Shown here piece by piece: positions 9,082 through 61,840 of a stretch of DNA of 64,000 nucleotides. The translations under genes were made by a program, and so were the position numbers. The notes below the pieces were generated by a model that saw nothing but the letters and a program-made list of their open reading frames with translations, searched no databases and was not told the DNA's origin. Location: assembly GCF_902806445.1 (NCBI RefSeq), contig NZ_LR760298.1, positions 806,001-870,000 of the forward strand. Direction: 5' to 3'. This DNA comes from Listeria sp. PSOL-1. GTDB taxonomy: Bacteria > Bacillota > Bacilli > Lactobacillales > Listeriaceae. Position 1 is the stretch's first letter. Every line of letters begins with the position of its first letter.

Positions 9082-9197
9082 CTACATTTCGAATACGATA
9101 AATCAAGCGAAAGCAGGGGGATTAACAGCAGCCGGGTGAGAACCGGAAGACTGATAATCCCCTTAAATGTGAGCGCTTGTCGCCGATTTATTTTGTT
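9082..9197. repeat. Intergenic hairpin element, copy A
   Basis: Copy of a dispersed element family. The outer left arm (9095-9115, ..AAATCAAGCGAAAGCA) is imperfectly complementary to the right arm (9171-9192, GAGCGCTTGTCGCCGATTTA). The inner stem pairs 9117-9124 with 9155-9162 (GGGGATTA/TAATCCCC), with a further CCGG/CCGG pair at 9132-9135 and 9143-9146. Flanks match copy D (CTACATTTC.AA.ACG; GATTTATTTTGT), as does GATTCAGCT at 9031. It lies between convergent genes. Confidence 0.75.
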
Positions 9198-9214
9198 TAT
9201 GTTAGCGTTCTTTT

Positions 9215-10816
9215 TTATTTATCAACGTGATAGGTTTCCTGTAAATATTCATCATAGGAAATCGCTTTATTGTAAAAAGCATCTTGATCGAGATTAATCA
9301 CACGCGTTGCTAAACTTTGAAGCAATTGATGGTCATGTGATGCGATAATAATAGCACCTTTAAAACCAAGCAATCCATTATTTAATGCAGTGATCGATTC
9401 TAAGTCAAGATGGTTTGTTGGTTCATCAAGAAGAAGAACATTTGCACCGCTAAGCATCATTTTTGAAAGCATGCAACGCACTTTTTCACCACCGGACAAA
9501 ACACGCACTTTTTTTAGAACTTCGTCGCCACTAAAAAGCATCCGACCTAAGAAGCCACGCAAGAAAGCCTCACTGTCTTCAGTTGGTGAAAATTGACGTA
9601 ACCACTGAACAAGATTAAGCTCATTTTCTTCAAAAAAAGCGGAGTTATCTTTTGGAAAATAACTGGTTGAAGTTGTGATACCAAAGCGAAAAGTACCAGA
9701 ATCAGGTTCCATTTCACCAGCTAAAATTTGTAATAGCGTTGTTTTCGCTACTTCATTATTACCAGCTAGTGCGACCTTATCATCTCGGTTAATTGTAAAG
9801 GATACGTTATCGAGAACTTTCACGCCATCAATTGTTTTGGTTAAATTTTCAACCGTTAATAGATCATTTCCGATTTCGCGATCGGGTTTAAATTGAATGA
9901 AAGGATATTTTCGGCTTGATGGCGCAATATCTTCAAGGGTAATTTTATCAAGCATTTTTTTCCGACTGGTTGCTTGTTTTGATTTTGAAGCATTGGCGCT
10001 GAAACGAGCAATGAAATCTTGGAGTTCTTTTATTTTCTCTTCTTTTTTCTTATTGCGATCGGACATCATGGTTTGAGCAAGTTGACTTGATTCATACCAA
10101 AAATCATAATTACCAACATAAAGTTTAATTTTACTGAAATCAAGATCAGCAATATGTGTACAAATTTTATTTAAAAAATGACGATCATGTGAAACAACAA
10201 TTACCGTATTTTCAAAGTTGATTAGAAATTCTTCTAGCCAATGAATTGCACGGATATCAAGGTGGTTGGTCGGTTCATCAAGTAACAGGATATCTGGCTT
10301 ACCAAATAAGGCTTGAGCAAGTAAGACTTTCACTTTCTCGCTTCCGCTTAAGTCTTTCATCAGTTTAGAATGGAGTTCGGATTCAATTCCTAAACCATTT
10401 AATAAAACAGCAGCGTCTGCTTCTGCTTCCCAACCATTTAACTCCGCAAACTCACCTTCTAGTTCAGCAGCACGAATCCCGTCTGCATCATTAAAGTCTT
10501 CTTTCATATAAATATCATTTTTTTCTTTCATGATTTTATAAAGTTGTTCATGACCCATAATGATAGTATCTAAAACGACTTCATCATCATATTGGAAGTG
10601 GTCTTGTTTCAAAACGGCTAGGCGTTCTCCAGGTGTAATGTGAACATTGCCGCTCTGTGAATCAAGTTCACCAGAAAGAATTTTTAAGAAAGTGGATTTT
10701 CCTGCACCATTTGCTCCGATTAGGCCATAACAATTTCCAGGAGTGAACTTAATCGATACATCTTCAAAAAGCTTTTTATCAGCAAAACGCAGACTAACGT
10801 TATTTACAGTTAACAT
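9215..10816 (-). CDS. ABC-F family ATP-binding protein (YkpA/YbiT type)
   Basis: 533 residues with two ABC domains and no membrane segments, so a soluble ABC-F protein rather than a transporter. Domain 1 has GANGAGKST (Walker A), an LSGSEKVK signature and LLLDEPTNHLDI; domain 2 has LSGGEKVRC and LLLDEPTNHLDL. The second Walker A is non-canonical (AGNNEVAKTT), which I recall as common in this subfamily. A charged linker (around residues 245-300) separates the domains. ABC-F members act on ribosomes. The gene is divergent from the TPP riboswitch-thiT unit, as in L. monocytogenes. Confidence 0.88.
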   Translation of the reverse strand: MLTVNNVSLRFADKKLFEDVSIKFTPGNCYGLIGANGAGKSTFLKILSGELDSQSGNVHITPGERLAVLKQDHFQYDDEVVLDTIIMGHEQLYKIMKEKNDIYMKEDFNDADGIRAAELEGEFAELNGWEAEADAAVLLNGLGIESELHSKLMKDLSGSEKVKVLLAQALFGKPDILLLDEPTNHLDIRAIHWLEEFLINFENTVIVVSHDRHFLNKICTHIADLDFSKIKLYVGNYDFWYESSQLAQTMMSDRNKKKEEKIKELQDFIARFSANASKSKQATSRKKMLDKITLEDIAPSSRKYPFIQFKPDREIGNDLLTVENLTKTIDGVKVLDNVSFTINRDDKVALAGNNEVAKTTLLQILAGEMEPDSGTFRFGITTSTSYFPKDNSAFFEENELNLVQWLRQFSPTEDSEAFLRGFLGRMLFSGDEVLKKVRVLSGGEKVRCMLSKMMLSGANVLLLDEPTNHLDLESITALNNGLLGFKGAIIIASHDHQLLQSLATRVINLDQDAFYNKAISYDEYLQETYHVDK

Positions 10817-10954
10817 GTTTTTCCTCCAATGCTTGCTTTTTATCTAAAAGCACAATTACTTTCATTTTAACATGTTCGTTTTATTAAAGAAAGTTTCTCT
10901 TAAAACTTTTATAATTGGAAAAGGCATGCTATAATATATTCGACAAATGAATAT

Positions 10955-11060
10955 GTTACCACAGGGGGAGCTTTAAGCTGAGATTGAGTCTTTCACTAGA
11001 TTTCTAACCCTTTGAACCTGTTCGTTAATACGAGCGTAGGGATTGTGGCAGGTAGCATTT
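10955..11060 (+). promoter_or_regulatory. TPP riboswitch (THI element)
   Basis: The thi-box hallmarks are present: an opening ACAGGGGGAGC, then GCTGAGATTGAG, later ACCCTTTGAACCTG, ending with GTAGGGATTGTGGCAGGT pairing back to the 5' strand. A TATAAT at 10930-10935 lies just upstream. The next gene encodes a thiamine-uptake component, which fits feedback control by thiamine pyrophosphate. No strong terminator follows before the ribosome site (AGAGGAG near 11112), so control of translation is possible. It accounts for most of the 312-base gene-free stretch 10817-11129. Confidence 0.92.
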
Positions 11061-11129
11061 TCCAAGTGAAACTGCTTTCTTCTGGGGTACGCTTTTGTCC
11101 ATTTATAGAAGAGAGGAGTTTATTTTTTT

Positions 11130-11690
11130 ATGAGAAATTTACGATTACTTATTTTGCTTGAATGCGCTATTTTTGCAGCAATCGCGATGGTTCTTAGCTT
11201 TATCCCGCTTGATATTGGTTCGAGTTTTGCGATATCGCTTGGGATGATTCCAATTTATATTTTGGCGATGAGAAGAGGTTTTTGGGCCGCTTGCTTTGCT
11301 GGACTGCTTTGGGGATTGTTACATTTCTTAACGGGAAAAGCTTATATTTTAACACTGTCTCAGGCAGGACTTGAATACATTGTTGCTTTTGTTTTTGTTG
11401 CTTTTTCTGGTGTATTTGCTGCTAATATTCGTTTACTAATTTCACAAAGTAAGATTAAACAAGCCATTGGTAAAGCCTGGGTTGCCATGCTTTTAGGTGG
11501 CATTGCCCGTTATTTTTGGCATTATGTAGCGGGTGTTATTTTCTGGGGTGCCTATGCTTTTAAAGGATGGAGCGCTCAGTTATTTTCGCTTGTTATGAAT
11601 GGGGCTAGTTGTTTAGCGACAATTATCGTTTGTGGAGTAGTTGTTTCGATTATGATAAAAGTCGCCCCCCGCTTATTTTTACCTAAATGA
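11130..11690 (+). CDS. thiT: Thiamine-specific S component of an ECF transporter
   Basis: 186 residues and six hydrophobic helices, typical of ThiT. It begins MRNLRLLILLECAIFAAIAM and contains the conserved aromatic-rich binding region AYILTLSQAGLEYIVAF and YFWHYVAGVIFWGAYAF (thiamine stacks on Tyr/Trp residues here in known structures). ThiT works with shared EcfA/EcfA'/EcfT encoded elsewhere. Control by the TPP riboswitch directly upstream confirms the substrate. A short terminator hairpin follows immediately. Confidence 0.93.
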   Translation: MRNLRLLILLECAIFAAIAMVLSFIPLDIGSSFAISLGMIPIYILAMRRGFWAACFAGLLWGLLHFLTGKAYILTLSQAGLEYIVAFVFVAFSGVFAANIRLLISQSKIKQAIGKAWVAMLLGGIARYFWHYVAGVIFWGAYAFKGWSAQLFSLVMNGASCLATIIVCGVVVSIMIKVAPRLFLPK

Positions 11691-11716
11691 CTCTGCTTTT
11701 ACGCAGAGTTTTTTTG
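11690..11716 (+). terminator. Terminator of thiT
   Basis: A 7-bp stem ACTCTGC/GCAGAGT (11690-11696 with 11703-11709), a 6-base loop and a run of eight T follow the thiT stop. Confidence 0.85.
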
Positions 11717-11720
11717 TGAG

Positions 11721-11745
11721 GTTTTATTTGAAAAAAGTAGGGAAA
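11721..11745 (+). promoter_or_regulatory. Candidate SigB promoter of opuC operon
   Basis: GTTT (11721-11724), a 15-base spacer and GGGAAA (11740-11745) match the Listeria/Bacillus SigB consensus GTTT-N13-15-GGGWWW. The opuC operon of L. monocytogenes is known to be SigB-dependent. The position is 65 bases before the opuCA start. Confidence 0.6.
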
Positions 11746-11809
11746 AATAAAAAGGTTATCTGGGAAAGTTGTATTTTCAACTAGATAAAGAAAAACGGAG
11801 GTGTAGCAT

Positions 11810-13627: not shown

Positions 13628-13640
13628 GGAGGAAAACAAA

Positions 13641-14564: not shown

Positions 14565-14582
14565 AGGAAGGGGCCCTAGAGC

Positions 14583-15254: not shown

Positions 15255-15351
15255 TTTTTAATAAACATTAAAAATAACTCATCTCTTTCCCTCGAAATTT
15301 TCACTTCAATCCTTTATAATAAAGATATATAAGAATAAAGGTGTGATGAAA

Positions 15352-16182: not shown

Positions 16183-16222
16183 ACCTTGAAACTAAGACCT
16201 TTTTCTTAGTTCAAGGTTTTTT
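16182..16222 (+). terminator. Terminator
   Basis: A 14-bp stem with one bulged base (16182-16196 with 16205-16218), an 8-base loop and TTTTTT. It overlaps the stop of the coiled-coil gene. Confidence 0.9.
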
Positions 16223-17974: not shown

Positions 17975-17987
17975 AAATCTTTGATAG

Positions 17988-18108
17988 ACACAAAATAAAT
18001 CGGCGACAAGCGCTTGCAGTTCGCATTAAAAAAGTTTGCCAGGCTTTCGGTTTCTGGCAAACTTCTTTAGTACAAACGCTTTCGTTCGATTTGTCGTGTT
18101 CAAAATGT
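17988..18108. repeat. Intergenic hairpin element, copy B
   Basis: The most complete copy. Left arm AAATCGGCGACAAGCGCTTGC (from 17998) and right arm ACGCTTTCGTTCGATTTG (18075-18092) are imperfect inverted repeats; many differences are G-to-A and would still pair as G-U in RNA. The inner stem is perfect over 11 bp (18032-18042 with 18054-18064, AAGTTTGCCAG/CTGGCAAACTT). It lies between convergent genes next to a separate terminator. Confidence 0.8.
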
Positions 18109-18110
18109 AA

Positions 18111-18149
18111 AATCCAAGCTCTATTTTTCAAGAAAATAGAGCTTGGATT
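18111..18149. terminator. Bidirectional terminator
   Basis: A perfect 17-bp stem (18111-18127 with 18133-18149) with a 5-base loop lies between the converging peptide-binding gene and the bilEB-like gene. Confidence 0.85.
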
Positions 18150-18173
18150 GCATGATATCCTAGATTTTTTTAT

Positions 18174-29912: not shown

Positions 29913-30440
29913 ATGCCAAATATTTTAGGGTTTACTCTACTGGAAATGATTGCACGTGAAGCATCTAGTGGCTATGAGCTTGCCCATCAACTTAAAATCA
30001 TGCAAAATACGCATCATAGTCAAATTTATCCTTCTCTTTCGGATCTTGAGGAAAAAGGCTTTCTCATTGTTCATGTGCAAAAGCAAGAAGGAAAACCAAA
30101 TAAAAAAGTTTATTCCATTACGGAGCTAGGCTTGAATGCGCTTAAAGAATGGGCTAATAGTACTTTAAAGCCCCCTGTTATTCGTGATGAATTTATTATT
30201 AAACTACAATTAGATTGGTTGGAACCTGAACAGACCAATGAACTACTACATGAGCGAAAAAAATATTTAGAAAATCAAAAAAGTTTGATCACAGAAACGC
30301 TTTTTAAATTTAAAAAAACACTGGGTTTAACTACGGAAGCTGAATGCAATCAAAATATGCCATATCAGATTTATGCCCGGCGGTTAGATTTAGTTACAGC
30401 TGAGATAGAATGGTGTGATCGCTTATTGCAACGTAAATAA
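29913..30440 (+). CDS. ladR: PadR-family repressor, LadR-like
   Basis: 175 residues. The winged helix (LGFTLLEMIAREASSGYELA, HSQIYPSLSDLEEKGFL, KPNKKVYSITELGLNALKEW) is followed by a C-terminal dimerising coiled coil (Vir_act_alpha_C type, ~95-175), so it is a long PadR-s1 member like LadR. LadR of L. monocytogenes represses mdrL. AAAGGTGG precedes ATG 29913. Both gene order and the palindromic operator in the shared intergenic region support the call. Confidence 0.83.
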   Translation: MPNILGFTLLEMIAREASSGYELAHQLKIMQNTHHSQIYPSLSDLEEKGFLIVHVQKQEGKPNKKVYSITELGLNALKEWANSTLKPPVIRDEFIIKLQLDWLEPEQTNELLHERKKYLENQKSLITETLFKFKKTLGLTTEAECNQNMPYQIYARRLDLVTAEIEWCDRLLQRK

Positions 30441-30448
30441 AACAAAGT

Positions 30449-30520
30449 AGAAAGCGCTCGCAGTTAATATTAAACAATTTGCCAGACTTCCGGTTCTCCG
30501 GTTTCTGGCAAATTGTTTCT
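30449..30520. repeat. Intergenic hairpin element, copy C (right arm lost)
   Basis: The left arm GAAAGCGCTCGCAGTTAATATTAA matches copy B (AAGCGCTTGCAGTTCGCATTAA). The inner stem is a perfect 13 bp (30473-30485 with 30505-30517, AACAATTTGCCAG/CTGGCAAATTGTT) with a CCGG..CCGG loop. The outer right arm is not recognisable. It lies between convergent ladR and pflA. Confidence 0.7.
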
Positions 30521-30550
30521 TAAAAAATATAGCTATGTCTTAGGCTCATT

Positions 30551-31318
30551 TTACTTTTTATTGACTTGAACTTTAGCATACTTATCAGTTTCTAAGATTT
30601 TGTTAGCTAGTTTAATCATCTCTTTGTTTGGTGTAGGGGTTCCTTCTAGTGGATAGCGAATACCTAACTGTTCCCACTTATAAACACCCATTGTATGATA
30701 AGGCAGTACTTCTACTTTTTTTACATTGGGTAGTTTTGAGATGAAATCATGGAGTTTTTGTAAATCAGTTGGGTCATCGGTTTTTGCTGGAATTAATACA
30801 TGGCGAACCCAAATGGGCTGGTTTTTGTCACGTAAATAATGTGCAAAATCAAGAACGGGTGCATTAGATTTTGTAGTAAGTTTGAGATGTTTCTCGGGAT
30901 CTATCTGTTTAATATCAAGCAAGATTAAATCGGTTAATGCTAGCAGCTTATCTAGCTTTGAAATGAAGATAGGGTCACGAGTAAAACAGCCACCGCAGCT
31001 ATCAATTGTAGTATGGACACCTGCTTTTTTGCAGAGTGTAAACAATTCAATTAAAAAATCAATTTGAAGTAACGGTTCCCCGCCGCTTACTGTGATTCCA
31101 CCACCAGAGTTATCCCAAAATTCACGATAACGAATCGCTTCCTTAAATACATCCTCTGCTGTTCGTTTTGTCCCAGTGCCAATTTTCCAAGTATCTGGAT
31201 TATGGCAAAACTGGCAGCGTAATAAACACCCTTGCATAAATATAATATATCTAATTCCTGGGCCATCCACAGTTCCCATTGTTTCTACTGAGTGGATTCC
31301 ACCAAAAATCGTTGTCAT
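30551..31318 (-). CDS. pflA: Pyruvate formate-lyase activating enzyme (radical SAM)
   Basis: 255 residues. The radical-SAM cluster motif CxxxCxxC is Cys31-Cys35-Cys38 (GCLLRCQFCHNPDTW), followed by GGGITVSGGEPLLQ and the family WVRHVLIP and LPYHTMGVYKWE. It installs the glycyl radical on PflB under anaerobic conditions using SAM and flavodoxin. The start overlaps the glpP stop (ATGA), so it is translationally coupled to glpP. The usual partner pflB is not in this window. Confidence 0.92.
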   Translation of the reverse strand: MTTIFGGIHSVETMGTVDGPGIRYIIFMQGCLLRCQFCHNPDTWKIGTGTKRTAEDVFKEAIRYREFWDNSGGGITVSGGEPLLQIDFLIELFTLCKKAGVHTTIDSCGGCFTRDPIFISKLDKLLALTDLILLDIKQIDPEKHLKLTTKSNAPVLDFAHYLRDKNQPIWVRHVLIPAKTDDPTDLQKLHDFISKLPNVKKVEVLPYHTMGVYKWEQLGIRYPLEGTPTPNKEMIKLANKILETDKYAKVQVNKK

Positions 31319-31902
31319 AACGAATCGCTTCCTTTTAACAGACTTTTAGACCAGAGTTCTTTGTTTGAAGTGGTGATGGCTTTAGCTCCAGCAGCAAGTG
31401 CTTGATCAATTTGCTTTTTTGTTGTAATAAGTCCACCGGCAATAATTGGGATGGAAACTTTTGTTGTCATTTTTTTTATTTCAGTTGGAATGATCCCAGG
31501 TAAAAGCTCAATGGCGTCGGGTTTTATTTTTTCAACGAATGAAATCCCTTTTTCATAAGCGCTGGAATCGATCATAAAAAGACGCTGAATAGCAAAAACA
31601 CCCTGTTGTTTCGCTTTAGCCACAACATTTGCTCGGGTTGAAATAATTCCTGCTGGTCTTACTTCTTGGCAAAGAAACTCAACGCCATAATCATCATTTT
31701 TTAGTCCAGCAATTAAGTCCGCGTGCAATAAAACCTTTTTATGGTTTCGTTGTGCTAATTTTAGTAACGGCTTTAACTGGGCAATATGACTTTCTAGCAT
31801 GACGAAGTATTGTATATTGGCATTTTGACAAATTTTTTCAATATCTTTTTGATGTCTTGCTGCTGGGATAATAGGTTGATTTATGAATTGTAATTTTTTC
31901 AT
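31315..31902 (-). CDS. glpP: Glycerol uptake operon antiterminator GlpP
   Basis: 195 residues, TIM-barrel GlpP family: INQPIIPAARHQKDIEKI at the start, FVMLESHIAQLKPLL, VLLHADLIAGLKNDDYG, LLPGIIPTEIKKM, IPIIAGGLITTKKQI. In Bacillus GlpP binds glycerol-3-phosphate and leader RNA to allow expression of glpFK and glpD. The glpF-glpK operon lies 9 kb away in this window (40374-42707). Here it is coupled to pflA downstream and follows mutL. Confidence 0.9.
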   Translation of the reverse strand: MKKLQFINQPIIPAARHQKDIEKICQNANIQYFVMLESHIAQLKPLLKLAQRNHKKVLLHADLIAGLKNDDYGVEFLCQEVRPAGIISTRANVVAKAKQQGVFAIQRLFMIDSSAYEKGISFVEKIKPDAIELLPGIIPTEIKKMTTKVSIPIIAGGLITTKKQIDQALAAGAKAITTSNKELWSKSLLKGSDSL

Positions 31903-31906
31903 TATT

Positions 31907-33721
31907 CTACATCACGCGTTTAAACATTTTTTCAAGCTCATAAGTTGTGTACTGAATGATAACGGGTCTACCATGTGGACAAGTAAATGGATCACTTGCC
32001 GCGCGAAGAGTATCTAGAAGAACTTCCATATCTTTATTGGTCAAATAATGATTGGCTTTGATTGATTTTTTGCAACTCATCATAATGGCTGTATCTTCGC
32101 GTAATTTGTGAATGCTAATATTTGGTGAGTGAATAGCTTCATCAATAATATCACGTAGCATCTCTTCTTCTTCTCCTTTTGGAAACCAGGTAGGATGTGA
32201 ACGAATAATATAACTATTTTGGCCAAAGTCTTCTAAAAATACGCCAACTTCCTCTAACTTTGCCTTTTGTTCAGCTAGTCGTATATATTCATCATTTGAA
32301 AATTCAAGGACAATAGGAACAAGTAACTCCTGCAATTCGCGTGCAACTTCTCCAATTTTTTCTCTGAAAAATTCATATTTTATCCGTTCTTGGGCGGCGT
32401 GTTGATCAATGATATAAAGACCGTTTTCATTTTGCGCTAGAATATAAGTCGCATGCATTTGGCCGATGGGGTACATTTTTGGCATTCTATTCACTTGCTC
32501 TTTTGTCGCAGGTGCGGGCTCTAATGTTTCTTCTGATTGATAAAGTGTTTCTTGTTCTTTTATTACTGGGACGTCTGGATCTGGCACAAAGTCAGGAATA
32601 TTTGGTTTTTGAAAAAGTACGGGTGCTGGTTTTTCATCTTGTTGTTCCACATTTTTAGGAGGATCAAAATTCATATTTAATTGCTCAGAATCTTGTTTTT
32701 GCTTTTTCGAAATTTCTCCTTCTGGAATGAGTTGTAATTTATGAAATGCTTTTTTGAGCATATCTGTTATTAAAGCGCTAAGTTCTTTCTCTTTGCTAAG
32801 CCGTACTTCAAGTTTTGCTGGATGAACATTAACATCAACAATGGTTGGGTCCATTTCAATTTGTAAAATAATAATCGGAAAACGGCCAATGGGTAAAAGC
32901 GTATGGTAGCCTTCTTGGATTGCTTTAACTAGTGCAAAGTTTTTGATGTAGCGGCCGTTGATGATGGTTGAAATATAATTTCTATTTGAACGATTTATTT
33001 CTGGCAGAACAGCGTAACCGGAAATTGTAAAATCAAGGGAACGCGCATGAACAGAAGCAGCTTTTTTAGCAATAGAAACCCCATAGATTGCTGCAATCAC
33101 TTGCCGTAAATCGCCATTTCCATTTGTTGATAAAATGGCTTTGCCGTTATGGCTTAGTCTAAAGCTGATATCAGGGTGTGCGAGTGCTAAGCGATTAATA
33201 ATGTCTGTGATATTACCAAGTTCGGTTGGCAAGCTTTTTAAATATTTTAGTCGAGCGGGTGTATTAAAAAATAACTGACTCACTTCAATTTGTGTCCCTT
33301 TACGTGAAGTGCTGCTTTGTAGTTCTTTTTGTTTGCCGCCTTCGAGAATAATTTTTGTACCAGGGCCCTCTCCAGTTGACGTGGTCATTTCTAGATGTGA
33401 AACAGAAGCGATACTTGGCAAAGCTTCACCGCGAAAGCCAAGGGTATGAACGTGAAAAAGGTCATGTTCATTTTTAATTTTACTTGTTGCGTGTCGTAAA
33501 AAAGCCGTTGGAACATCTTCTGGATTGATTCCGATTCCATTGTCAATGACAGTGATTTTGTTTAAGCCGGCTTCTTCAATTAAGATATCAATAACCGTAC
33601 TATCTGCATCAATCGCATTCTCTAGTAGTTCTTTAACGACAGAAGAAGGACGTTCCACAACTTCTCCTGCCGCAATTTTATTTGATAGTGCATCGGTTAG
33701 TTCAATGATTTTATGAGGCAT
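31907..33721 (-). CDS. mutL: DNA mismatch repair protein MutL
   Basis: 604 residues. The GHKL ATPase N-domain has [18 protein letters not shown] and [12 protein letters not shown]; a linker rich in Pro/Glu/Gln spans ~340-410; the C-terminal endonuclease domain has the metal motif [21 protein letters not shown] and the Cys-Pro-His-Gly motif. So it is a nicking MutL like those of other Gram-positives that lack MutH. One base separates it from mutS, so the pair is co-expressed. Confidence 0.95.
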
Positions 33722-33722
33722 A

Positions 33723-36299
33723 TTATTCGTCCTCCAATTTATTTTGTAACTCGTAAAGTTTATTTATCGCATCAAGTGGTGTCATTTGCATTAATTTTAA
33801 GGTGCGAATTTGGTTAAGAATTTTATTGGCTTGTTTTGTATCTGTTTTTGTTTCTTCAAGTGGAAACATGGCAAGTTGGGTTTCTTGTTGACGTGGTGCC
33901 TTTTCTTTTGTTTTTTCGTTTTTTGTTTCAAGCTGATTTAAAATTTCACTGGCACGCTTAATTAAAGCTTTTGGAAGTCGTGCAAGTTCTGCCACATGAA
34001 TCCCATAACTTTTATCGGCAGGACCTTCTTTGATTTTGTGTAAAAAGACAACTTTGCCATTTTCTTCAACAGCACTCACATGAATATTGTTTAGGTTTGG
34101 CAAGGTTTTTTCTAAGACGGTTAGCTCATGGTAGTGTGTTGAAAATAATGTTTTGGCATGAACGTTTTCATGAATATACTCGATGATTGCTTGTGCTAGT
34201 GCCATCCCGTCATAGGTGGCTGTTCCGCGTCCAATTTCATCAAAAAGAATCAAACTGTTTTCTGTAGCGTTAACAATCGCGTTTTGCGCTTCTAACATTT
34301 CTACCATAAAGGTACTTTGACCAGCAATTAAATCATCCGCAGCGCCAATCCTTGTAAAAATTTGATCAAAAATCGGTAAGGTTGCTTCTTCTGCTGGGAC
34401 AAAGCAACCGATTTGCGCACAGATTGCTGTTAAAGCGATTTGACGCATGTAGGTGCTTTTACCAGACATATTAGGTCCAGTGATTAAGAGAAGCTCTCGT
34501 TCATTATTCATTTCGCAATCGTTGGCTACATAACTCTGGATGCCCATTACTTTTTCCACCACTGGATGTCTGCCAGATTTGATCGATAGCTTGCCTGTTT
34601 CACTTAATATGGGGCGGATAAAGTGATTTTTTTCGCTGATTTCAGCAAAGCTTTGTAAACAATCCACTTCACTGATTAGTTTCGCTAGTTTTTGTAAACG
34701 TTCGATAAATTGTTTAACGACTTCACGGACTTCTGTGAAAAGTTGATATTCAAGCTCTATGCTTTTTTCTTCAGCTTCTAGGATTAATTTTTCTTTTTCT
34801 TTTAATTCGGGTGTAATGTAGCGTTCTGCATTGGCAAGCGTTTGTTTTCGTTCATAGCGCCCTTCTTCAAGCAGATGCGTATTGGCACGTGTAACTTCAA
34901 TATAATAGCCAAATACTCGATTAAAGCCTACTTTAAGCGATTTGATATTGGTTCGTTCGCGTTCTTTTTTTTCAAGTTCTGCAATCCAGTGTTTACCATT
35001 TCTGCTGGCGTCGCGATACGTGTCTAAATTTTGATGATAGCCATCTTTAATAATTCCTCCTTCTCGAATTGAAAGCGGTGGCAAATCAATGATGGCTCGT
35101 TCTAGTAATTCTGTAAGCTCAGTGCATGGATCAAGATTATTTGCCAGGTCTGTGAGGTTTTTAGCGTCTTTCATCGAGGTCAGGGTGGCTTTAATTTTAG
35201 GGATTTGATAAAGTGAATTACGCAATTGGATTAAATCGCGTGCGTTAACGTTCCCGTAAGCAACACGACCGGCTAAGCGTTCTAAATCATACACATTTTT
35301 TAAATTTTCTACAAGTTCAACGCGTTCAAAAAAATGATCCATCAATTCATTGACATCCTTTTGTCTTGTTTCGATCATTGTTCGATCAATTAAAGGTCTA
35401 TCAATCCACTGTTTCATTTGCCTTGCGCCCATGGCAGTTTTTGTATTATCTAAAAGCCAAAGTAGTGTGCCTTGACGTCCTTTCCCACGAATGGATTCAG
35501 AAAGTTCAAGGTTGCGCTTTGAATAATAATCTATTTTCATAAAATGATTGGTTTCGTAATGAATCGCTTTTTGTAAATGGCCAAGGTCCCGTTTTTGTGT
35601 TGCGATTAAGTAATTTAAGAGTTTGCTGATGGCTTTTTTTTCAGTTAATGTCATTGATCGATCAATAAGATTTGTAAAGGCTTCCGTTGGTTCTTCATTT
35701 TCATAAATAGAAAGGGTTAAACCGAGCTGTTCCTTTAGTGTTTCATCCATGATGAGTGCATCATTTGAAGATGCAACTAGTTCTTTAACTGAAAGCGTTG
35801 TTAACTCATTTGTTAAGCGTCCAATTTCTGGCTTTAATAACGTTGATTTTAATTCACCCGTAGATAGATCACAATAAGCAAAACCATATTCTTTATTTTC
35901 ATAGATAAACAAAGAGGCAATATAATTATTTTCTTTTTCTTTTAACCCTTTTTCATCCATAACCATTCCAGGCGAAATTAATTGAACAACTTCTCGCTTA
36001 ACCATGCCTTTTGTTGTTTTAGGATCTTCTACCTGTTCACAAATGGCGACTTTATAACCTTTTTCGATTAATGTATCAATATAGCCACTGGCAGAATGAT
36101 ACGGAACACCACACATTGGAATTTTTTCTGTTCCTCCACCTTCTCGTCCTGTAAGTGTAATTTCTAGAATTTGTGAAGCTCTTAGTGCATCATCGAAGAA
36201 CATTTCATAAAAATCACCCAATCTAAAGAACAGAAAGGCATCTTGATAATTTTCTTTAATACTAAGATATTGTTTCATCATTGGTGTGTATTCTGTCAT
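33723..36299 (-). CDS. mutS: DNA mismatch recognition protein MutS
   Basis: 858 residues from ATG 36299 ([15 protein letters not shown]), the start that fits homologues; an ATG four codons earlier is possible. The mismatch-binding motif [11 protein letters not shown] contains the Phe-x-Glu reader near residue 38. The C-terminal ABC ATPase has [30 protein letters not shown] and STHYHELT. A dimerisation helix ends the protein. It scans DNA for mispairs and recruits MutL, encoded next. Confidence 0.95.
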
Positions 36300-43869: not shown

Positions 43870-43972
43870 CTCCTCATACTCAGACTCGCCAGCGATGGGG
43901 ATTTAACTTAAAGCTAAATAACTTGACCCATTTTTGAGCGGTTGTAGCCATGGTGCGCTACAAACATAACAT
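43870..43972 (-). promoter_or_regulatory. L21 leader RNA
   Basis: The ~100-base untranslated region before rplU folds with a hairpin TGTAGC/GCTACA (minus strand, about 43943-43962) and further pairings, as in the conserved L21 leader of Firmicutes, thought to mediate autogenous control by L21. Called from position and the hairpin, not from a covariance search. Confidence 0.6.
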
Positions 43973-50415: not shown

Positions 50416-50433
50416 GCCTATCACAACCCCTTT

Positions 50434-51357: not shown

Positions 51358-52653
51358 TTAATCTAAAATATTTTCTGTTAATAATTGTCTAACTTCAGCA
51401 ATAAAATAAAGAGAACCTGTTATGAGTAGACATGTTGAGTCTAGCGAAGAAATTTGTTCTTTGATAAAAACTTGCCAATCCTCTACTTTCTCAATTTGGT
51501 TGTTTAAAGCAACTTCTGTTAGGATTTCTTTTGTCATTGCTCGTGGATAATCGAAAGTTGTTAAACACAACTTGCTGTTTGGAATCGTTTTTAATTCTTT
51601 GATCATCTCTTGATAATTTTTGTCTTGTAATGCACTAAACAAGATGATTTTTTCCTCATTTATTTGCTTTACCGTTTCTTTAAATGCACGTATGCCTTCT
51701 GGGTTATGCGCCCCATCAAGAATAATCAAGGGCTCTTTAGAAAGTGTTTCCATCCTTCCTTTCCATGCTGCATTTATGAGGCCACTACGTATGGCTTCTA
51801 CAGACAGATGAATTTGGCCGCTATTCTTTAGTTCTAGTAACGTTGCAATAGCTACAGCCGCATTATTCACCTGATGAGGACCTTCTAGACTAACCGTTAG
51901 ATCAGGCAACCTTTTTGTTTCACCGATAAAAGTAAATGTGTTTTGTCTTCTGGATTTTACTTGGAAGTCTACGCCTAACTGCTTTATTTTGGCATGTTTT
52001 TTTTGACTAATGTCATGAAGGACTGTTTGCGCTTCTGGTTGTAAAACGCCTGAAATAATGGGGATTTCTTGCTTGATTATTCCGCCCTTTTCAGCTGTGA
52101 TTTGTTCAAGTGTATTACCTAAGAATTCCATGTGGTCTAAGCCAACTGTTGTGATGACAGAAATAAGTGGTTGTAAAACATTGGTTGAATCTAGCCTTCC
52201 GCCAAGGCCTACCTCGATAACACCAAAGTCAATCGCCGTATGATACTTTGCGAAATAAAGGAACATCATCGCTGTAATGATTTCAAATTCAGATGGAGGG
52301 CCGAATTTGCTGTTTGCGATTTCTTCTACAATTGGCTTAATATGTTGAACGAGAAGGAGAATTTCATCATTAGAAATTGGTTTTCCATTCACGCTAATGC
52401 GTTCGTTAAAAGATTCGATATAAGGCGAAGTAAATGTGCCCACTTGATAACCTTCTGCTTCAAGCATTGAGCGGATGAATGTTAAGGTAGAACCTTTGCC
52501 ATTTGTACCAGCGACATGAATCCATGAATGTGCTTTTTCTGGATGTCCTAATTTTTCAAGCATCAATTGCATACGACTTAATCCTGGCTTAATTCCTAAT
52601 CTAAGTGTGCCATGGATCCATTCTAGCGCTTTTTCATACGTATGAATTTCCAT
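51358..52653 (-). CDS. folC: Folylpolyglutamate/dihydrofolate synthase
   Basis: 431 residues. Mur-ligase-like ATPase with GTNGKGSTLTFIRSML near residue 50, FTSPYIESFNERISVNG, GLGGRLDSTN and LDGAHNPEG. It adds glutamates to folates. It lies downstream of valS with copy D of the hairpin element between them. Confidence 0.95.
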   Translation of the reverse strand: MEIHTYEKALEWIHGTLRLGIKPGLSRMQLMLEKLGHPEKAHSWIHVAGTNGKGSTLTFIRSMLEAEGYQVGTFTSPYIESFNERISVNGKPISNDEILLLVQHIKPIVEEIANSKFGPPSEFEIITAMMFLYFAKYHTAIDFGVIEVGLGGRLDSTNVLQPLISVITTVGLDHMEFLGNTLEQITAEKGGIIKQEIPIISGVLQPEAQTVLHDISQKKHAKIKQLGVDFQVKSRRQNTFTFIGETKRLPDLTVSLEGPHQVNNAAVAIATLLELKNSGQIHLSVEAIRSGLINAAWKGRMETLSKEPLIILDGAHNPEGIRAFKETVKQINEEKIILFSALQDKNYQEMIKELKTIPNSKLCLTTFDYPRAMTKEILTEVALNNQIEKVEDWQVFIKEQISSLDSTCLLITGSLYFIAEVRQLLTENILD

Positions 52654-52714
52654 TTTCTTCCTCCTCTATAAAAAATGAGATTCAGCTCTATTTTTTAAGA
52701 AATAGCGTATAGGT

Positions 52715-52830
52715 TCTACATTTCAAACACGGCAAATCGAGCGAAAGCATTTGTATTGAAGAAGGCTGCATGTGAGAGTCGAAGAGCCTTCTTCAATTGC
52801 GAACACTTGTCACTCGATTTATTTTGTCTT
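52715..52830. repeat. Intergenic hairpin element, copy D
   Basis: Outer arms GGCAAATCGAGCGAAAGC (52731-52748) and GAACACTTGTCACTCGATTT (52801-52820) are imperfect inverted repeats. Inner stem perfect 12 bp, TTGAAGAAGGCT/AGCCTTCTTCAA (52756-52767 with 52785-52796). A second small hairpin AGCTCTATTTTTTAAGAAATAGC precedes it at 52684. The right end touches the valS stop codon. Its flanks match copy A directly and copy B in reverse. Confidence 0.78.
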
Positions 52831-55480
52831 AACGATTTTCCCTGAGTGTCGTCATGCGTTCCTCAACAGAAGCTTTTTTCGCAAGATAGTCCTGTTCTTT
52901 TTCGCGTTCTTCTTGAACTACTTTTTCAGGCGCCTTAGCAACAAAACGTTCGTTGTTAAGCTTATTTTGAACGCGTGTGATTTCTTTCTGCCATTTCTCA
53001 CGTTCTTTTTCTAGGCGACTAAGCTCTTCATCGATGTTAATTAATCCTTCAAGTGGTAAATAAATTTCAGCGCCAGTAATTATTGCTGACATCGCCGTAT
53101 TACTTGGTTTAACTTCAGAAGAAATCGTTAATTTTTCTGGATTGCAGAATCGTTCAATATAAGATGCGTTTTCTGCAATAATTTGTTTATAGTGTTCGTT
53201 TGTTGGCTTAATTTCAATCGCTACGGGTTTGCTTAATGGTGTTCCTACTTCAGCTCGAATATTACGGACCGAACGGATGATTTCAACCAATACTTTCATT
53301 GCTTCCGAGGCATCTTGATCAATGTGATTTGCATTTACTTCTGGCCAAGAGCTAATTGTAATCGATTTTCCGTTGTGAGGTAAATTTTGCCATATTTCTT
53401 CTGTAACAAAAGGCATAAATGGATGAAGCAAGCGCATCGTTTGATCCAATACGTAAGCAAGTATTGATTTGGTTGTTAACTTAGCTTTTTCGTCTTCCCC
53501 ATAAAGTGAGATCTTAGCAATTTCAATATACCAGTCACAGAATTCATCCCAAATGAAATTATAAAGTGTCCGTCCCACTTCTCCAAATTCATATTTTTCT
53601 GCTAAGATTGTTACGGTTTCAATCGTTTCATTTAATCTTGTCAAAATCCATTTATCGCTTACTGCAGTTATATTGGTTAAATTAATTTGATCGTAGCTTA
53701 ATCCATCCATGTTAATTAAAGCAAAGCGAGAGGCATTCCATATTTTATTAATAAAATTCCAAGTGGATTCTACTTTTTCAAAACTAAATTTTAAATCTTG
53801 TCCGGGCGCTGTTCCAGTTGATAGTGTATAACGCAGTGAATCTGCTCCATACTTATTAATCACATCGATAGGATCTACACCATTTCCAAGTGATTTCGAC
53901 ATTTTTTTTCCTTCAGCATCGCGAACTAATCCATGAATCAGTGTATCTTTAAATGGACGTTTTCCAGTAAATTCAACAGACTCAAAAATCATGCGTGAAA
54001 CCCAAAAATAAATAATATCATAACCCGTTACAAGCGTACTTGTTGGGAAAAAATGGTTAAAATCTTGATTGTCGATATTTGGCCATCCAAGCGTAGAAAA
54101 TGGCCATAGTGCGGAACTAAACCATGTATCTAAAACGTCTTCATCTTGCCGCCACTCTGTTACGTTTTCTGGAGGATTTTCGCCAACGTAAATTTCGCCA
54201 GTTTCATGATGATACCACGCTGGGATACGATGGCCCCACCAAAGCTGACGTGAGATGCACCAATCGTGGATATTTTCCATCCAGGTGACATACATTTTTT
54301 CAAAGCGTTTTGGAATGAAGTGTACTTTATCTTCACTTTCTTGTAACTCAAGTGCTTTTTTGGCAAGTGGGGCCATTTTAACGAACCATTGTTTGGATAA
54401 ATAAGGTTCAACAACAGCACCAGTTCTTTCGGAATGACCAACAGAATGAAGATGAGGCTCTTGTTTGATAAATAGGCCTAATTCTTTAAAGTCTTGAATA
54501 ATGGCTTTGCGCGCTTCTAATCTGCTCATTCCATGATATTTACCAGCACTTTCATTCATCGTTGCCTCTTCATTCATAACGATAATGCGTGGCAAATCAT
54601 GTCTATTCCCCACTTCAAAATCGTTTGGGTCGTGTGCAGGAGTAATTTTTACAGCTCCTGAACCAAAATCACGCTCAACATATTCGTCTCCTACAATCGG
54701 AATTTCACGCCCTAATATTGGGAGTGTAATGGTTTTCCCGATCAAATGTTGATATCTTTCATCTTTTGGATGAACTGCTACAGCTGTGTCTCCAGGTATG
54801 GTTTCTGGTCTTGTTGTCGCAACTTCTAAATAACCAGAGCCATCAGTTAATGGATATTTTAGATGAAAAAATTGTCCTTCGACATCTTTATGAATAACCT
54901 CAATATCTGATAAAGCCGTTTTAGCTACTGGATCCCAGTTAATAATATATTGTCCGCGGTAAATTAGTCCTTTTTCATAAAGCGAAATAAATACTTTCTT
55001 TACTGCGTCTGAAAGCCCCTCATCTAAAGTAAAACGTTCGCGTGAATAATCAAGCCCAAGCCCTAACTTCTCCCATTGTTCACGGATAAAAGAAGCATAT
55101 TCTTCTTTCCAGTCCCACACTTGCTTAACAAATTTTTCACGTCCTAGGTCGTGTCTTGTGATGTTTGTTTCACGTAATTTTTCTTCCACTTTTGCTTGTG
55201 TGGCAATACCAGCATGATCCATACCGGGAAGATAAAGGGTATCATAGCCTTGCATTCGTTTCATACGTGTAATAATATCTTGCAAAGTTGTATCCCAAGC
55301 ATGTCCTAAATGTAGTTTTCCAGTAACATTTGGTGGTGGTATAACAACACTAAATGATTTTTTTGACGGATTCCCTTCAGCTTTAAAAAATTGATTTTCT
55401 AACCACCACTGATATTTACCTTTTTCAACAGTTTGTGGATCATATTTAGTGGGCATGTTTATCTCACTATTTTCGGTCAT
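52829..55480 (-). CDS. valS: Valyl-tRNA synthetase
   Basis: 883 residues from ATG 55480 (AAAGGAGGG upstream). The open frame extends to 55612 but runs through the T-box leader and is not translated. Class I signatures: [13 protein letters not shown] (HIGH) and [10 protein letters not shown] (KMSKS). An editing domain is inserted between them, and a C-terminal coiled-coil tRNA arm (~820-883, [17 protein letters not shown]) follows. Regulated by the valine T-box leader directly upstream. Confidence 0.96.
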
Positions 55481-55502
55481 ATAAAACCCTCCTTTTTCAA
55501 TA

Positions 55503-55762
55503 AAAAAACCCTTTTCATCCTTAAAATAAAGGACGAAAAGGGTATGTTTTCGCGGTACCACCTTTTTACTTGTTAAAACAAGCACTTCATTGAAATAACG
55601 ACGCATAAGCACCGGCTTTTCCTACTAAATATCATTTCAGAAAAGCTGCTTCAAGGCTACCTTCAATTAGACATTTTGAAAGTTTTCACCAACCACTTTC
55701 TCTCTACATAAAATTGTGCTAATTTACTCTTCCTTGTCATGGCATTTAAAAAGTATGATAAT
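55503..55762 (-). promoter_or_regulatory. T-box riboswitch of valS
   Basis: Minus-strand leader. Stem I with AGTGGTTGGTGAAAAC distal loop and a specifier loop GAAGGTAG, giving codon GTA (Val) at 55660-55658; the T-box AAGGTGGTACCGCG lies at ~55566-55551; then a terminator stem (55531-55543 with 55508-55520) followed by TTTTTTT. Uncharged tRNA-Val would favour the antiterminator. Confidence 0.92.
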
Positions 55763-55768
55763 GTTTGT

Positions 55769-55797
55769 AGTTTACCAGAAGAAAGCCATTTCGTCAA
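55769..55797 (-). promoter_or_regulatory. Promoter of valS leader
   Basis: Minus strand TTGACG (55797-55792), 17-base spacer, TAAACT (55774-55769), placed immediately after the hemL stop, so valS-folC have their own start site. Confidence 0.65.
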
Positions 55798-55798
55798 T

Positions 55799-57088: not shown

Positions 57089-57103
57089 TCTAGTCCCTCC
57101 TTT

Positions 57104-58075: not shown

Positions 58076-58077
58076 CT

Positions 58078-59725: not shown

Positions 59726-61010
59726 TGATTAATTCCTCATTTCTATTTTCTTCGCTTAAATCGAAAATTTGTTTAAAGGCTTCAATCTTTAATTCCGATT
59801 GATCATGTACTGCCATTTCTTTAATTTCGGTTACAGGATGCTTTAACATTTGGTTAATGACGCTTTTCATATGTTTTCCTATAATCAGATATTCATGGTC
59901 AGTTAATCTTGGCAGCTTATTTTTAAGGCTGTGCATCGTTTCTTCCTGGATTTTTAAAGCATTTTCACGCAATTCACGAATCAATGGGATAACGCCAAGC
60001 TGCTTTTCCCATTCATAAAAAGCGATAACCGCTTGTTCAATTTCTTGTTGTACTTTTTGAACGATGCGTTTCCGTTCTGTTGTATTGGCTGTGACCACAC
60101 CATTTAAATCATCAAGGTCATACAAAAATAAATTGGGAAGATCTGCACAATTTGGGTTAACGTTCCGAGGTAATGCAATATCAATCATTAACAGTTCTTT
60201 ATTCCGCTTTTTAAGTGCATCTTGCATCATCTTTTTGTTGATAATATACTCACTAGAAGCCGTTGAAACTAAGATAATATCAATGGAAGGCAAAATATCT
60301 TTTATTTGTCCAAAATCGATTGTCTTTGCAGAGAACTCTTTTGCTAATTTCTCTGATTTTTCATTTGTTCGGTTGGTGATCGTTATATTCCCTACACCGC
60401 TACCGTGTAAATTTTTCAAAGCAAGCTTTCCCATTTTACCTGCACCAATAAGGAGAACACTTTTCTTTTCGATGTCAGTGTAAAGCTGCTTGGCAATTTC
60501 TACAGCAGCATAACTCACAGAAACTGCATTTTCATTTATTTTAAATTGATGGTGCGCTTTTTTGGCAAAGAAAATAGCTTCACGAAATAAGTAATTAAGG
60601 ATCGTGCCGGTTGTTTTTGCCAAATGCGCTTCGTTAAATGCTTTTTTTACTTGACCGAGAATTTGCGTTTCCCCAAGCACAAGAGAATCTAAACCAGCAG
60701 TAACCTGATATAGATGTCTAACAGCAGCTATTTCCTCATGAAAAAAAAGATAGGGCTCTAAGTCATGAATACTACAATCAAACCAATTGGCTAAAAAACG
60801 TTTTAAATAATAACGACCCGTATGGATTTGATCCACTACAGCAATGATTTCAGTGCGATTGCAAGTCGAGATAATAACGTTTTCTAATAGGCTTTTTTCT
60901 TTGAGCAAAGCGGACTCTGCTTGTATTTTTTCATCATCTGTAAAAATAAATTTTTCTCTTATATTAATGGGTGCTGTTTTGTGATTTAGCCCAGTGGAGA
61001 GAATATACAT
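59667..61010 (-). CDS. hemA: Glutamyl-tRNA reductase
   Basis: 447 residues. Catalytic Cys50 in IISTCNRTE, LGLNH-like start STGLNHKTAPINIREKF, LVLGETQILGQVK, the NADPH fold VLLIGAGKMG, and a C-terminal dimerisation helix. It reduces Glu-tRNA to GSA, the committed haem step. The C-terminal ~20 residues (NETGNHRWQSEKQTSSYSN) are encoded in the overlap with hemC and look non-conserved. No hemX follows, unlike B. subtilis. Confidence 0.95.
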   Translation of the reverse strand: MYILSTGLNHKTAPINIREKFIFTDDEKIQAESALLKEKSLLENVIISTCNRTEIIAVVDQIHTGRYYLKRFLANWFDCSIHDLEPYLFFHEEIAAVRHLYQVTAGLDSLVLGETQILGQVKKAFNEAHLAKTTGTILNYLFREAIFFAKKAHHQFKINENAVSVSYAAVEIAKQLYTDIEKKSVLLIGAGKMGKLALKNLHGSGVGNITITNRTNEKSEKLAKEFSAKTIDFGQIKDILPSIDIILVSTASSEYIINKKMMQDALKKRNKELLMIDIALPRNVNPNCADLPNLFLYDLDDLNGVVTANTTERKRIVQKVQQEIEQAVIAFYEWEKQLGVIPLIRELRENALKIQEETMHSLKNKLPRLTDHEYLIIGKHMKSVINQMLKHPVTEIKEMAVHDQSELKIEAFKQIFDLSEENRNEELINETGNHRWQSEKQTSSYSN

Positions 61011-61084
61011 GAAACAATCCTCCTAAACTTATCAATTGCTTTTATCTTATCATTTTTAAATGTGCTTTTAAACTCGTCTGCCTT

Positions 61085-61669
61085 TTACTGCATTTTAACT
61101 TCAATCGCTTGCCATGCTTCTTCTTTTCCCATGCCAGTTTCAGATGAAAAGACAATGAAATCATCATTTGAATCAAAATCTAGTGTTTCTCGAATAATTT
61201 TAGCGTTTTTTTGCCATTTACTACGTGGTATTTTATCCGCTTTCGTAGCGATAATAATCGTTGGTATCTGGTAATACTTGAGAAATTCATACATCATCAC
61301 ATCGTCATTTGTTGGCTTGTGTCTTAAATCAACAATTTGCACAACTGCTTTTAACTGCTCACGTGAAGTGATATAAGTCTCAATCATTTCTCCCCATTTT
61401 TCACGTTCACGCTTAGAAACTTTGGCAAAACCATAACCAGGGACGTCAACAAAATAAAGAGCATTTTCGATTTTATAAAAGTTTAATGTTTGTGTTTTTC
61501 CCGGCTTTTGTGAAATACGAGCCATGCTTTTCCTTCGAATCATTTTATTAATAAATGAAGATTTCCCGACATTTGACCGTCCTGCTAGTGCAAATTCAGG
61601 GAGCAAACCTTCTGGATATTGTTCTTTCCATACCGCACTAATTACTAATTCTACATTATTTACATCCAT
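61085..61669 (-). CDS. engB: Ribosome biogenesis GTPase YsxC/EngB
   Basis: 194 residues. G1 [14 protein letters not shown]3 [12 protein letters not shown]4 IIATKADKI. Acts in 50S assembly. Located between thrS and hemA; B. subtilis has lon-ysxC-hemA, with thrS elsewhere, so this matches Listeria order. Confidence 0.95.
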
Positions 61670-61759
61670 AAATTTTTGTCCACCCTTATTTTTAATCTTT
61701 CTTTAGTATAACGGATAAACGTTTAAAATGCACGATTTGAAAAAGAGTTTAGGACATAA

Positions 61760-61840
61760 ATGAGACAAGCGTTCGTTATTTAAGTGTTGGATAGAAAATT
61801 TTCCCACTAACCACTTAAAATAAAAACGCTTGTCATCCGG
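61760..61840. repeat. Intergenic hairpin element, copy E (compact)
   Basis: Perfect outer arms GACAAGCGTT/AACGCTTGTC (61764-61773 with 61825-61834) enclose an inner stem TTATTTAAGTG..GG/CC.CACTTAAAATAA. The left arm GACAAGCGTTCG..ATT.AAG matches copy D in reverse. Shorter than the other copies and without their flanks. It lies between thrS and engB, after the thrS stop side. Confidence 0.6.

Follow-up and report, generated by a model that had tools for sequence, protein, structure and literature searches.

The window analysed here is a stretch of 64,000 nucleotides from the genome of Listeria sp. PSOL-1, in which four intergenic gaps hold copies of one folded repeat (E1 to E4) and a fifth holds a separate hairpin (E5). 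E1 and E2 lie between convergent genes, with core hairpins at 9080..9200 on the minus strand and 17986..18112 on the plus strand, respectively; E1 folds on both strands and retains pairing in an inner stem of the GGGGATTA type, and the inner stem of E2 is AAGTTTGCCAG. E3 (30433..30556, plus strand), also in a convergent gap, is a weak, truncated or divergent copy that has lost its outer arms and retained the long inner stem. The core of E4 (52714..52831, minus strand) stands behind valS in a tandem arrangement. Reading the sequence beyond the cores revealed a right tail of E1 at 9012..9079 (minus strand), with an AT-rich second hairpin region and a ...ATGTTAAAGACTTG end (end motif 12/15), a second hairpin of E2 formed by AATCCAAGCTCTATTTT..AAATAGAGCTTGGATT with the end GATATCCTAGATTTTTTT at 18112..18171 (plus strand; end motif 13/15), and a right tail of E4 with an AT-rich second hairpin at 52671..52713 (minus strand). 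E5, at 61745..61850 on the plus strand, has the end GAGTTTAGGACATAAA and the arms GACAAGCG/CGCTTGTC, with an end motif at genome position 867746 bearing one mismatch.

All five fold stably: z-scores ranged from -3.3 to -7.7 across ten folds (five copies on both strands, 200 shuffles each), including -5.5 for E3 and -4.6 and -7.7 for E5, and no shuffle was as low as the native sequence in nine of the ten, with 1/200 for E4 on the plus strand. The first-pass annotation had placed related elements in all five gaps. With the R1 family model, built from 28 sequences, E2, E4 and E1 score 123.2, 101.5 and 99.1 bits, by construction since all three are model sequences, and E3, which is not among them, scores 35.8 bits (E 1.3e-5). 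The grouping thus stands for E1 to E4 but not for E5, where the R1 search gave no match at E<=5 (61760-61840). The same annotation had described the inner stems as unrelated in sequence; once more copies are compared, those of E1 to E4 are seen to be homologous and covarying, each being a version of ...AAGAAGTTTGCCAG with changes in both arms.

The R1 covariance model matched the 2.1 Mb home genome at 100 non-overlapping places, 98 of them at E<=0.002, and blastn seeded with E2 showed copies at unrelated loci to be 70-95% identical; as short repeats dispersed in this manner they resemble MITEs (miniature inverted-repeat transposable elements). In a second Listeriaceae genus, six genomes contain 42, 55, 36, 56, 54 and 17 copies, which are near-identical to one another. 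Such a search had been proposed as the check on the family, and it recovered further copies both in this genome and in the second genus. No copy was found at E<=1e-5 under strict filters in 24 other genomes of the home genus, and plasmid and phage collections gave no match for either form of the element; viral contigs gave one exact pattern match. The end pattern matched 12 times in the home genome against once in a backward control, and across the rest of the genus it was mostly close to control, with 6-9 against 1-3 matches in three genomes (G020, G017 and G024). No Rfam 15 family reached its gathering score on the elements, either in the window or at ten second-genus loci, and an e-value search of one copy and six loci gave nothing at elements, the single match of one copy (E 1.6) being to a human lncRNA family; the earlier remark was that no named family was recognised. 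A literature search for Listeria or Brochothrix, with subscription journals mostly outside its coverage, found no paper on such a repeat.

In the whole element a stem, GAGTCTGGGACA.../...TGTCYCAGACTC, closes the fold, is flanked by A- and T-tracts and bears two arms: a long arm with conserved outer arms, a middle stem free to vary and a conserved apex, and a second arm that is a shorter hairpin. The full form measures about 240 bp and the core about 120-150 bp. One full second-genus copy folded at -125.6 kcal/mol (z -10.8), and its fold has two adjacent stem-loops on both strands, as in the EFAR repeats discussed below. The second-genus consensus (30 rows, one cut at the wrong place) has clear terminal inverted repeats, and both ends were recognised in 49 of 147 copies there. 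The left end was recognised in 29/100 home-genome copies (control 56/2000), the right end in 43/100 (control 68/2000) and both in 13/100. Complementarity of the ends within as against between home-genome copies was not above shuffles (608/2000 as high with 13 copies; 20/100 with 99 copies).

Paired cells in the home genome amount to 87.8%, against 84.1 +/- 0.4 in shuffles, and two-sided changes to 43 cells, against 15.9 +/- 3.0, with no shuffle of 500 as high in either measure. The second genus has 439 two-sided cells, against 103.6 in shuffles with a maximum of 142, and there the middle stem of about 8-10 bp is hypervariable yet paired, flanked by near-invariant arms. Each inner stem had been said to pair with its own partner, and this pairing is indeed above chance; the covariation exceeds both shuffled and slid controls in the two genera, and the first-pass reading survives this second check proposed for it.

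All 98 classified home-genome copies lie behind a gene, 47 in convergent and 51 in tandem gaps, with none in divergent ones. With ORFs of at least 70 aa a first pass placed 8/100 copies inside an ORF, two of which on inspection were ORFs of 60-73 aa; the contexts used ORFs of at least 90 aa, with which 0/99 copies fall inside one. In the inner stems of tandem copies, read on the sense strand of the gene, G.U pairs outnumber A.C mismatches 58 to 26 (p 6e-4), or 28 to 9 with 14 ties when counted per element (p 0.003). Unpaired columns have no such bias (C>T 78 / G>A 74, A>G 55 / T>C 50). The folding energies agree, the mean dG(+)-dG(-) being -1.2 for elements running with the gene, +8.8 for those against it (p 7.6e-5) and +3.6 for convergent copies. 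Leading-strand bias was rejected as the cause of the inner-stem asymmetry: convergent copies give a non-significant 33:22 (p 0.18), and their energies likewise have no leading-strand effect (p 0.54). The sense-strand bias is not significant in the outer arms (63:48, p 0.18), which in convergent copies favour the leading strand by 49:31 (p 0.057), and there a replication-strand effect of some size may exist. Given that the wobbles track the transcribed strand and that unpaired columns are unbiased, the mutation pattern indicates that the fold is kept by selection in the RNA of the neighbouring gene, which bears out and sharpens the earlier suggestion of selection on structure.

The second genus presents a different asymmetry. 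Across 144 of its 147 copies, stem mismatches on the plus strand are A.C in 60 cases against G.T in 4, in every gene context, a count that leaves out one fixed site (there C.A 112, T.G 1); the G.U/G.T wobble thus sits on the minus strand. Internal loops, wobble pairs and the unpaired apex are conserved, and fixed U.G pairs stand directly beside the hypervariable stem (128/131 at one pair). Gene contexts from the same kind of caller put 11/142 of these copies in divergent gaps, and were not used as evidence because the call at one locus (L311) clashes with the tandem reading of that locus in L240.

Comparison of insertion sites revealed that occupancy differs between species, the insertion polymorphism expected of a MITE: by flank spacing in the genome G101, five loci are empty, three occupied and two filled by another hairpin repeat, with four left unresolved. 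By eye, L310, L355 and L293 compared with G101 have a terminator in one species and terminator-like feet flanking the element in the other. This terminator pattern holds for only 3/6 of the compared sites: L269 adjoins a terminator rather than occupying one, and L327 has a direct repeat of about 12 bp and an empty site without a terminator. At L225 the pattern was not readable either way. Sequence and folds, again judged by eye, place a short hairpin with a T-tract in the gap corresponding to E4 in L. grandensis and L. kieliensis. The outermost feet match better within an element than between elements (5.55 against 5.03 +/- 0.17, 1/300 as high); the same test in the home genome gave 20/100. 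Insertion at terminators formed no part of the first-pass reading.

A hairpin with a T-tract follows the core at 95/145 transcript-element junctions, by a lax home-made rule without a shuffle control. Conservation of the U-tract did not depend on the transcribed side, and no terminator-like site emerged when the E4 gap (52600-52900) was scanned with a consensus; these two tests of termination, a role that the elements might have, were both negative. Ordinary bidirectional intrinsic terminators, alike by descent and convergence and never mobile, would share the gene-end location in both orientations and the closing stem with A/T tracts of the young copies. We nevertheless regard this explanation as unlikely, given the 70-95% identity at unrelated loci, the near-identity of second-genus copies and the presence or absence of copies at the same locus between species, along with the negative U-tract context test and with the fixation of G.U pairs and conservation of the unpaired apex, neither of which termination requires.

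The symmetry of the arms could also have arisen by mutation, through template switching between the arms of a quasi-palindrome, rather than by selection on RNA. Neighbouring asymmetric outer sites are indeed symmetrised in one and the same direction more often than expected (25 against 12.7, 0/5000 shuffles, in the 55/99 home-genome copies scorable at all three sites), and the share of transitions does not differ significantly between two-sided (79:43) and one-sided (121:48) changes (p 0.25). However, template switching is unable to make mismatches follow the sense strand of the gene, and copying between arms would erase the fixed U.G pairs beside the hypervariable stem. Arm copying as the sole cause is ruled out by these two features, and we hold the mutational account to be improbable, although arm copying may add to change in the outer arms. 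Finally, the copies could be small RNAs, each transcribed on its own, or else hairpins of single-stranded DNA for a structure-specific enzyme, with their gene-end position incidental. This would suit the second-genus mismatches and the conserved internal loops and wobble pairs, but we consider it unlikely: in the home genome the inner stem has no intrinsic strand preference (G.U 69, A.C 71) and follows the host gene instead.

We consider the repeat to be probably a non-autonomous mobile element of Listeriaceae, which often settles in terminators and is kept in this genome as a 3'-end RNA hairpin. It takes its place behind genes, in many cases inside or next to the transcription terminator. The second-genus copies look young and share an intrinsic strand asymmetry through G.U pairs conserved on one strand; those of the home genome are old and diverged, and their evolution is that of a hairpin in the adjacent gene's RNA, in which compensatory substitutions and a tolerance for sense-strand G.U preserve the inner stem. 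Movement would depend on a transposase acting in trans: searches of the home genome with Y1_Tnp and DDE_Tnp_1 gave no match and one with rve gave two partial matches, neither fitting, so that these three Pfam families tie no transposase to the element. The host role might lie in generating the 3' ends of mRNAs or in protecting them. More tentatively, the element may have two lives, with a locus-specific, hypervariable but paired middle stem between near-invariant recognition arms. In an active host the minus strand would act as its own structured RNA or single-stranded DNA hairpin, with fixed G.U pairs and an apex common to a second repeat family; with amplification over, copies would be taken over as host mRNA 3'-end hairpins and the selected strand would switch to that of the neighbouring gene.

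With about 100 replicate hairpins in both orientations, this one genome constitutes a natural experiment, in which the strand that tolerates wobble pairs tells selection on RNA from selection on DNA. Whether a dispersed bacterial repeat works at the RNA level can thereby be tested directly by computation, for ERIC, BOX, bcr and EFAR as well. The family also adds an example from Listeriaceae in which insertions fall at terminators and a probable mobile element has been recruited as RNA at gene ends.

The EFAR (Enterococcus faecalis repeats) insert into stem-loops, portions of whose stem they retain at the repeat ends. They are probably the Efa-1 repeats of PMC2267715, which describes a type I element of 163 bp in 65 copies with a pair of adjacent stem-loops, and PMC3733652 counts EFAR among bacterial MITEs. 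By description, the two adjacent stem-loops are shared with the Listeriaceae element, whereas the hypervariable self-paired stem, the fixed wobble asymmetry and the sense-strand effect are, as far as those descriptions go, features of the latter only. IS1272 of the IS1182 family recognises stem-loops by their structure and takes their place, in the inverted-repeat-replacing transposition outlined in PMC5678879. The frequent seat of our element in terminators is similar, but IS1272 carries its own transposase, with none tied to our element by the three families above, and not every compared Listeriaceae insertion sits in a stem-loop. REP and REPIN sequences, with their RAYT transposases, are likewise extragenic palindromes in high copy; they differ in that the home genome lacks a Y1_Tnp (HUH) match and in unit size, about 120-240 bp here against 20-40 bp for REPs (PMC3733652). 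ERIC forms a single long stem-loop (PMC2267715) and bcr1-3, of the bcr1-bcr18 series, are MITE-like and often lie in untranslated parts of mRNAs (PMC3446304). Compared by description only, ERIC and bcr1-bcr18 resemble the Listeriaceae element as dispersed folding intergenic repeats, from which it is set apart by a closing stem with two arms.

The hairpins of the five gaps of the window (E1, 9080-9200; E2, 17986-18112; E3, 30433-30556; E4, 52714-52831; E5, 61745-61850) fold more stably than shuffled sequences on both strands (z-scores of -3.3 to -7.7), and in only one of the ten folds did a shuffle, one of 200, reach as low an energy. A blastn search with E2 against the PSOL-1 genome (one contig of 2,096,749 bases, with the window at positions 806001-870000) recovered at least 78 matching pieces, with 40 of 110 candidates scored. 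An alignment of 28 PSOL-1 copies, including E1, E2 and E4, was scored with a 40-pair structure against 500 shuffled and a series of slid controls. The first-pass annotation had proposed conserved outer arms and inner stems that are unrelated in sequence yet each paired. With more copies the inner stems of E1-E4 prove to be variants of one another, and the pairing is borne out by the alignment: 87.8% of cells are paired as against 84.1% in the shuffles, and 43 cells show two-sided change as against 15.9 in the shuffles and 8-16 in the slid controls. Such change is seen in 14 pairs (8.3 when shuffled; 1 of 500 shuffles as high), and in 10 of the 18 inner pairs. The covariance-model search of the genome that the annotation had suggested, seeded with this alignment, yielded, from the 150 of 1332 candidates that were scored, at least 137 matches at E<=1, which reduce to at least 100 places once opposite-strand duplicates are dropped, 98 of them at E<=0.002; a further copy at genome position 1461113 emerged in a later search. 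Within the window the family model matches E1-E4 and does not find E5, so that four of the five gaps said to hold related hairpins are retained. Hairpins with AGTYTRGGACATA-like ends and other interiors occur at genome positions 1027420-1027565, 1151715-1151845 and 867735-867855 (E5); at 286910-286965 and 657105-657175 the same ends bound short hairpins that look like plain terminators.

Of 165 realigned matches the best 150 were taken, and removal of opposite-strand and repeated rows left 99 copies. Their inner stems are Watson-Crick paired in 86.2% of cells, a share that falls to 72.3% (at most 75.8% in 500 trials) when each copy is given the right arm of another; they have 157 two-sided cells and 215 that are one-sided or unpaired. 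The corresponding values for the outer arms are 73.7% and 69.2% (maximum 71.2%).

In a survey of 395 genomes of the order, using strict filters and scoring 8 candidates each, matches at E<=1e-5 were confined to PSOL-1 and nine genomes of one other Listeriaceae genus; none was found in 24 genomes of PSOL-1's own genus. One own-genus genome (G015) has a match at 7e-4, and it shares with another (G016) a single locus bearing a distant relative of the element, the two being 86% identical to each other. With 150 candidates scored, five second-genus genomes yielded at least 42, 55, 36, 56 and 54 copies and Listeria grandensis FSL F6-0971 at least 17; L. kieliensis yielded none. The L. grandensis genome is counted with the second genus, its matches having contig coordinates identical to those in G213 of that genus. 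A full-looking copy is also present at about 640-860 of an IMG/VR contig filed as viral, which may be host or prophage flank. A separate sequence, AGGCTGGGACATA, occurs six times in the own-genus genome G024 (contigs C8, C11 twice, C15, C22 and C38), and is perhaps another terminator or repeat family.

In the second genus a regular-expression search of both strands matched 278 times; the chosen orientation accounted for 148 of these, and 147 copies were unique. Their consensus order (30 rows, one wrongly cut) is an A-tract, GAGTCTGGGACATAACCC, the core, a second hairpin, TTTTGTCYCAGACTC and a T-tract, and the whole copy L252 folds as a closing stem with two arms on both strands (minus, -125.6 kcal/mol, z -10.8; plus, -122.8 kcal/mol, z -12.7). 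Pair counts rest on the 131 copies that are 123 nt long, among which there are 124 distinct sequences. The distinct cores are paired in 98.3% of cells (shuffled 91.4, maximum 92.0), and 439 cells show two-sided change, as against 103.6 (at most 142) in the shuffles and 41-81 in the slid controls. Two-sided change affects 18 of 19 middle-stem pairs as against 2 of 20 outer-stem pairs; 83 distinct middle 12-mers are found among the 147 copies, and fixed U.G pairs persist beside the middle stem, one in 128 of 131 copies.

Matching of both flanks across species gave 29 clusters, three of which repeat a locus from the other strand, leaving about 26 loci. At several of these the stems are identical, while at others they differ wholesale yet still pair, as in L335 versus L356 and in L228, L275 and L251, in front of a gene that we take to be gpsA. 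Stretches of one compared genome, G101, were fetched by expected position and both flanks matched to copies in other genomes. By flank spacing, G101 is empty at five loci (L225, L269, L310, L327 and L355), occupied at three (L279 and those of its own copies L342 and L349) and bears another hairpin repeat at two (those of L291 and L261); spacing gave no call at L277, L320, L293 and L227. By eye, L310 reads AAAAGAGCAGTGATC..GATCACTGCTCTTTTT in G101, and in G175 the element lies there, flanked by AAAAGGG and CTGCTTTTTT; G101 again has a terminator-like hairpin at L355 and L293, where elsewhere complementary A/T-tract feet flank the element; at L269 the element lies beside a terminator; and L225 has no clear target pattern. 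At L327 in G175 the element is flanked by a direct repeat of ~12 bp, TTTTAAAGAATA, that overlaps the upstream gene's stop codon, and no terminator is seen by eye at the empty site in G101; G087 has the same element at this locus (L361). In the 49 of 147 second-genus copies with both ends recognized, the outermost feet match more within than between elements (5.55 versus 5.03 +/- 0.17; 1 of 300 shuffles), and the same test on 99 PSOL-1 copies was not significant (20 of 100). The E4 gap in L. grandensis and L. kieliensis holds short hairpins with T-tracts. A second dispersed hairpin family (AAATGCTTAGTTTCTAGGCAAAAGCGAGTACC..), seen at six G207 and G101 loci (L306, L345, L384, L387, L389 and L390), has the apical motif GCGGAGCRTAC..GTAYGTGAGNACYGGAA in common with the present family and occupies its place at two loci; a similar apex is found in a distant Firmicute MAG (L109).

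Genes were called by a simple rule (ORFs >=90 aa) in 60 PSOL-1 stretches around matches, and this classified 98 of the 99 copies, one lacking a called gene on one side. There are 47 copies between convergent genes, 51 between tandem genes (23 oriented with the gene, 28 against) and none between divergent genes, one apparently divergent copy behind an 81-aa ORF having been reassigned to tandem; a first pass at another ORF threshold likewise gave 0 of 100. In the window 4 of the 26 gaps >60 nt are divergent. The core lies a median of 26 nt from the stop codon (range -37 to 555; 146 gene sides). The window also contains Rfam matches to a TPP riboswitch (10954-11060, plus strand), an L21 leader (43872-43953, minus) and a T-box (55526-55749, minus) upstream of valS, whose product is 80% identical to ValS of L. 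grandensis and L. kieliensis.

A stem maintained as RNA should tolerate changes leaving G.U, and not those leaving A.C, on the transcribed strand. In the inner stems of 50 tandem copies the sense strand has 58 G.U and 26 A.C (p 6e-4), and wobble-making changes of both types are favored (C>T 29 versus G>A 10; A>G 18 versus T>C 7). Fifty unpaired columns of the same copies give 78 versus 74 and 55 versus 50, respectively (Fisher p 0.002 for the comparison). Because cells within one element are not independent, elements were counted as well: the sense strand is favored in 28 and the other in 9, with 14 ties (p 0.003). The outer arms of the tandem copies, with fixed asymmetric sites removed, give 63 versus 48 (p 0.18). 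Copying of one arm onto the other may have added symmetry to the outer arms of PSOL-1 copies, but it cannot account for the sense-strand effect. In the 47 convergent copies the leading-strand ratios are 33:22 in inner stems (p 0.18) and 49:31 in outer arms (p 0.057), and their energies do not depend on replication strand (p 0.54). GC skew and gene direction flip at about 30000-34000 of the window (genome about 838 kb), and the skew returns between 1.8 and 1.92 Mb; the replication terminus probably lies within the window.

The predicted energy difference between strands follows gene direction in PSOL-1 (-1.2 kcal/mol with, +3.6 convergent and +8.8 against; p 7.6e-5 for the contrast of with and against). 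Of the two strands, it is the sense RNA that is more stable in 12 of 23 copies with the gene and 25 of 28 against. In 144 second-genus copies, one fixed site omitted, plus-strand stem mismatches are A.C in 60 cases and G.T in 4 in any gene context, which is wobble on the minus strand, an intrinsic preference. This preference is gone from PSOL-1 inner stems (G.U 69, A.C 71). In the second genus energies depend weakly on gene direction, with the sign found in PSOL-1 (16.3 with versus 18.2 against, p 0.03).

We consider it reasonably probable that the family is a mobile, non-autonomous element residing at gene ends, often in terminators, which is young-looking in the second genus and old in PSOL-1, and that the PSOL-1 copies are maintained as hairpins in host RNA transcripts. 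No transposase is assigned to it, the PSOL-1 genome giving no match to Y1_Tnp or DDE_Tnp_1 and two partial ones to rve. The PSOL-1 hairpins may act in termination, in blocking 3' exonucleases, or in both; two tests of termination, for U-tract dependence on the transcribed side and by a consensus scan of the E4 gap, were negative. In the literature consulted, two systems come nearest: IS1272, which replaces stem-loops when it transposes (PMC5678879), and Efa-1 of E. faecalis, a double-hairpin family (PMC2267715) taken to be the same as EFAR (cf. PMC3733652).
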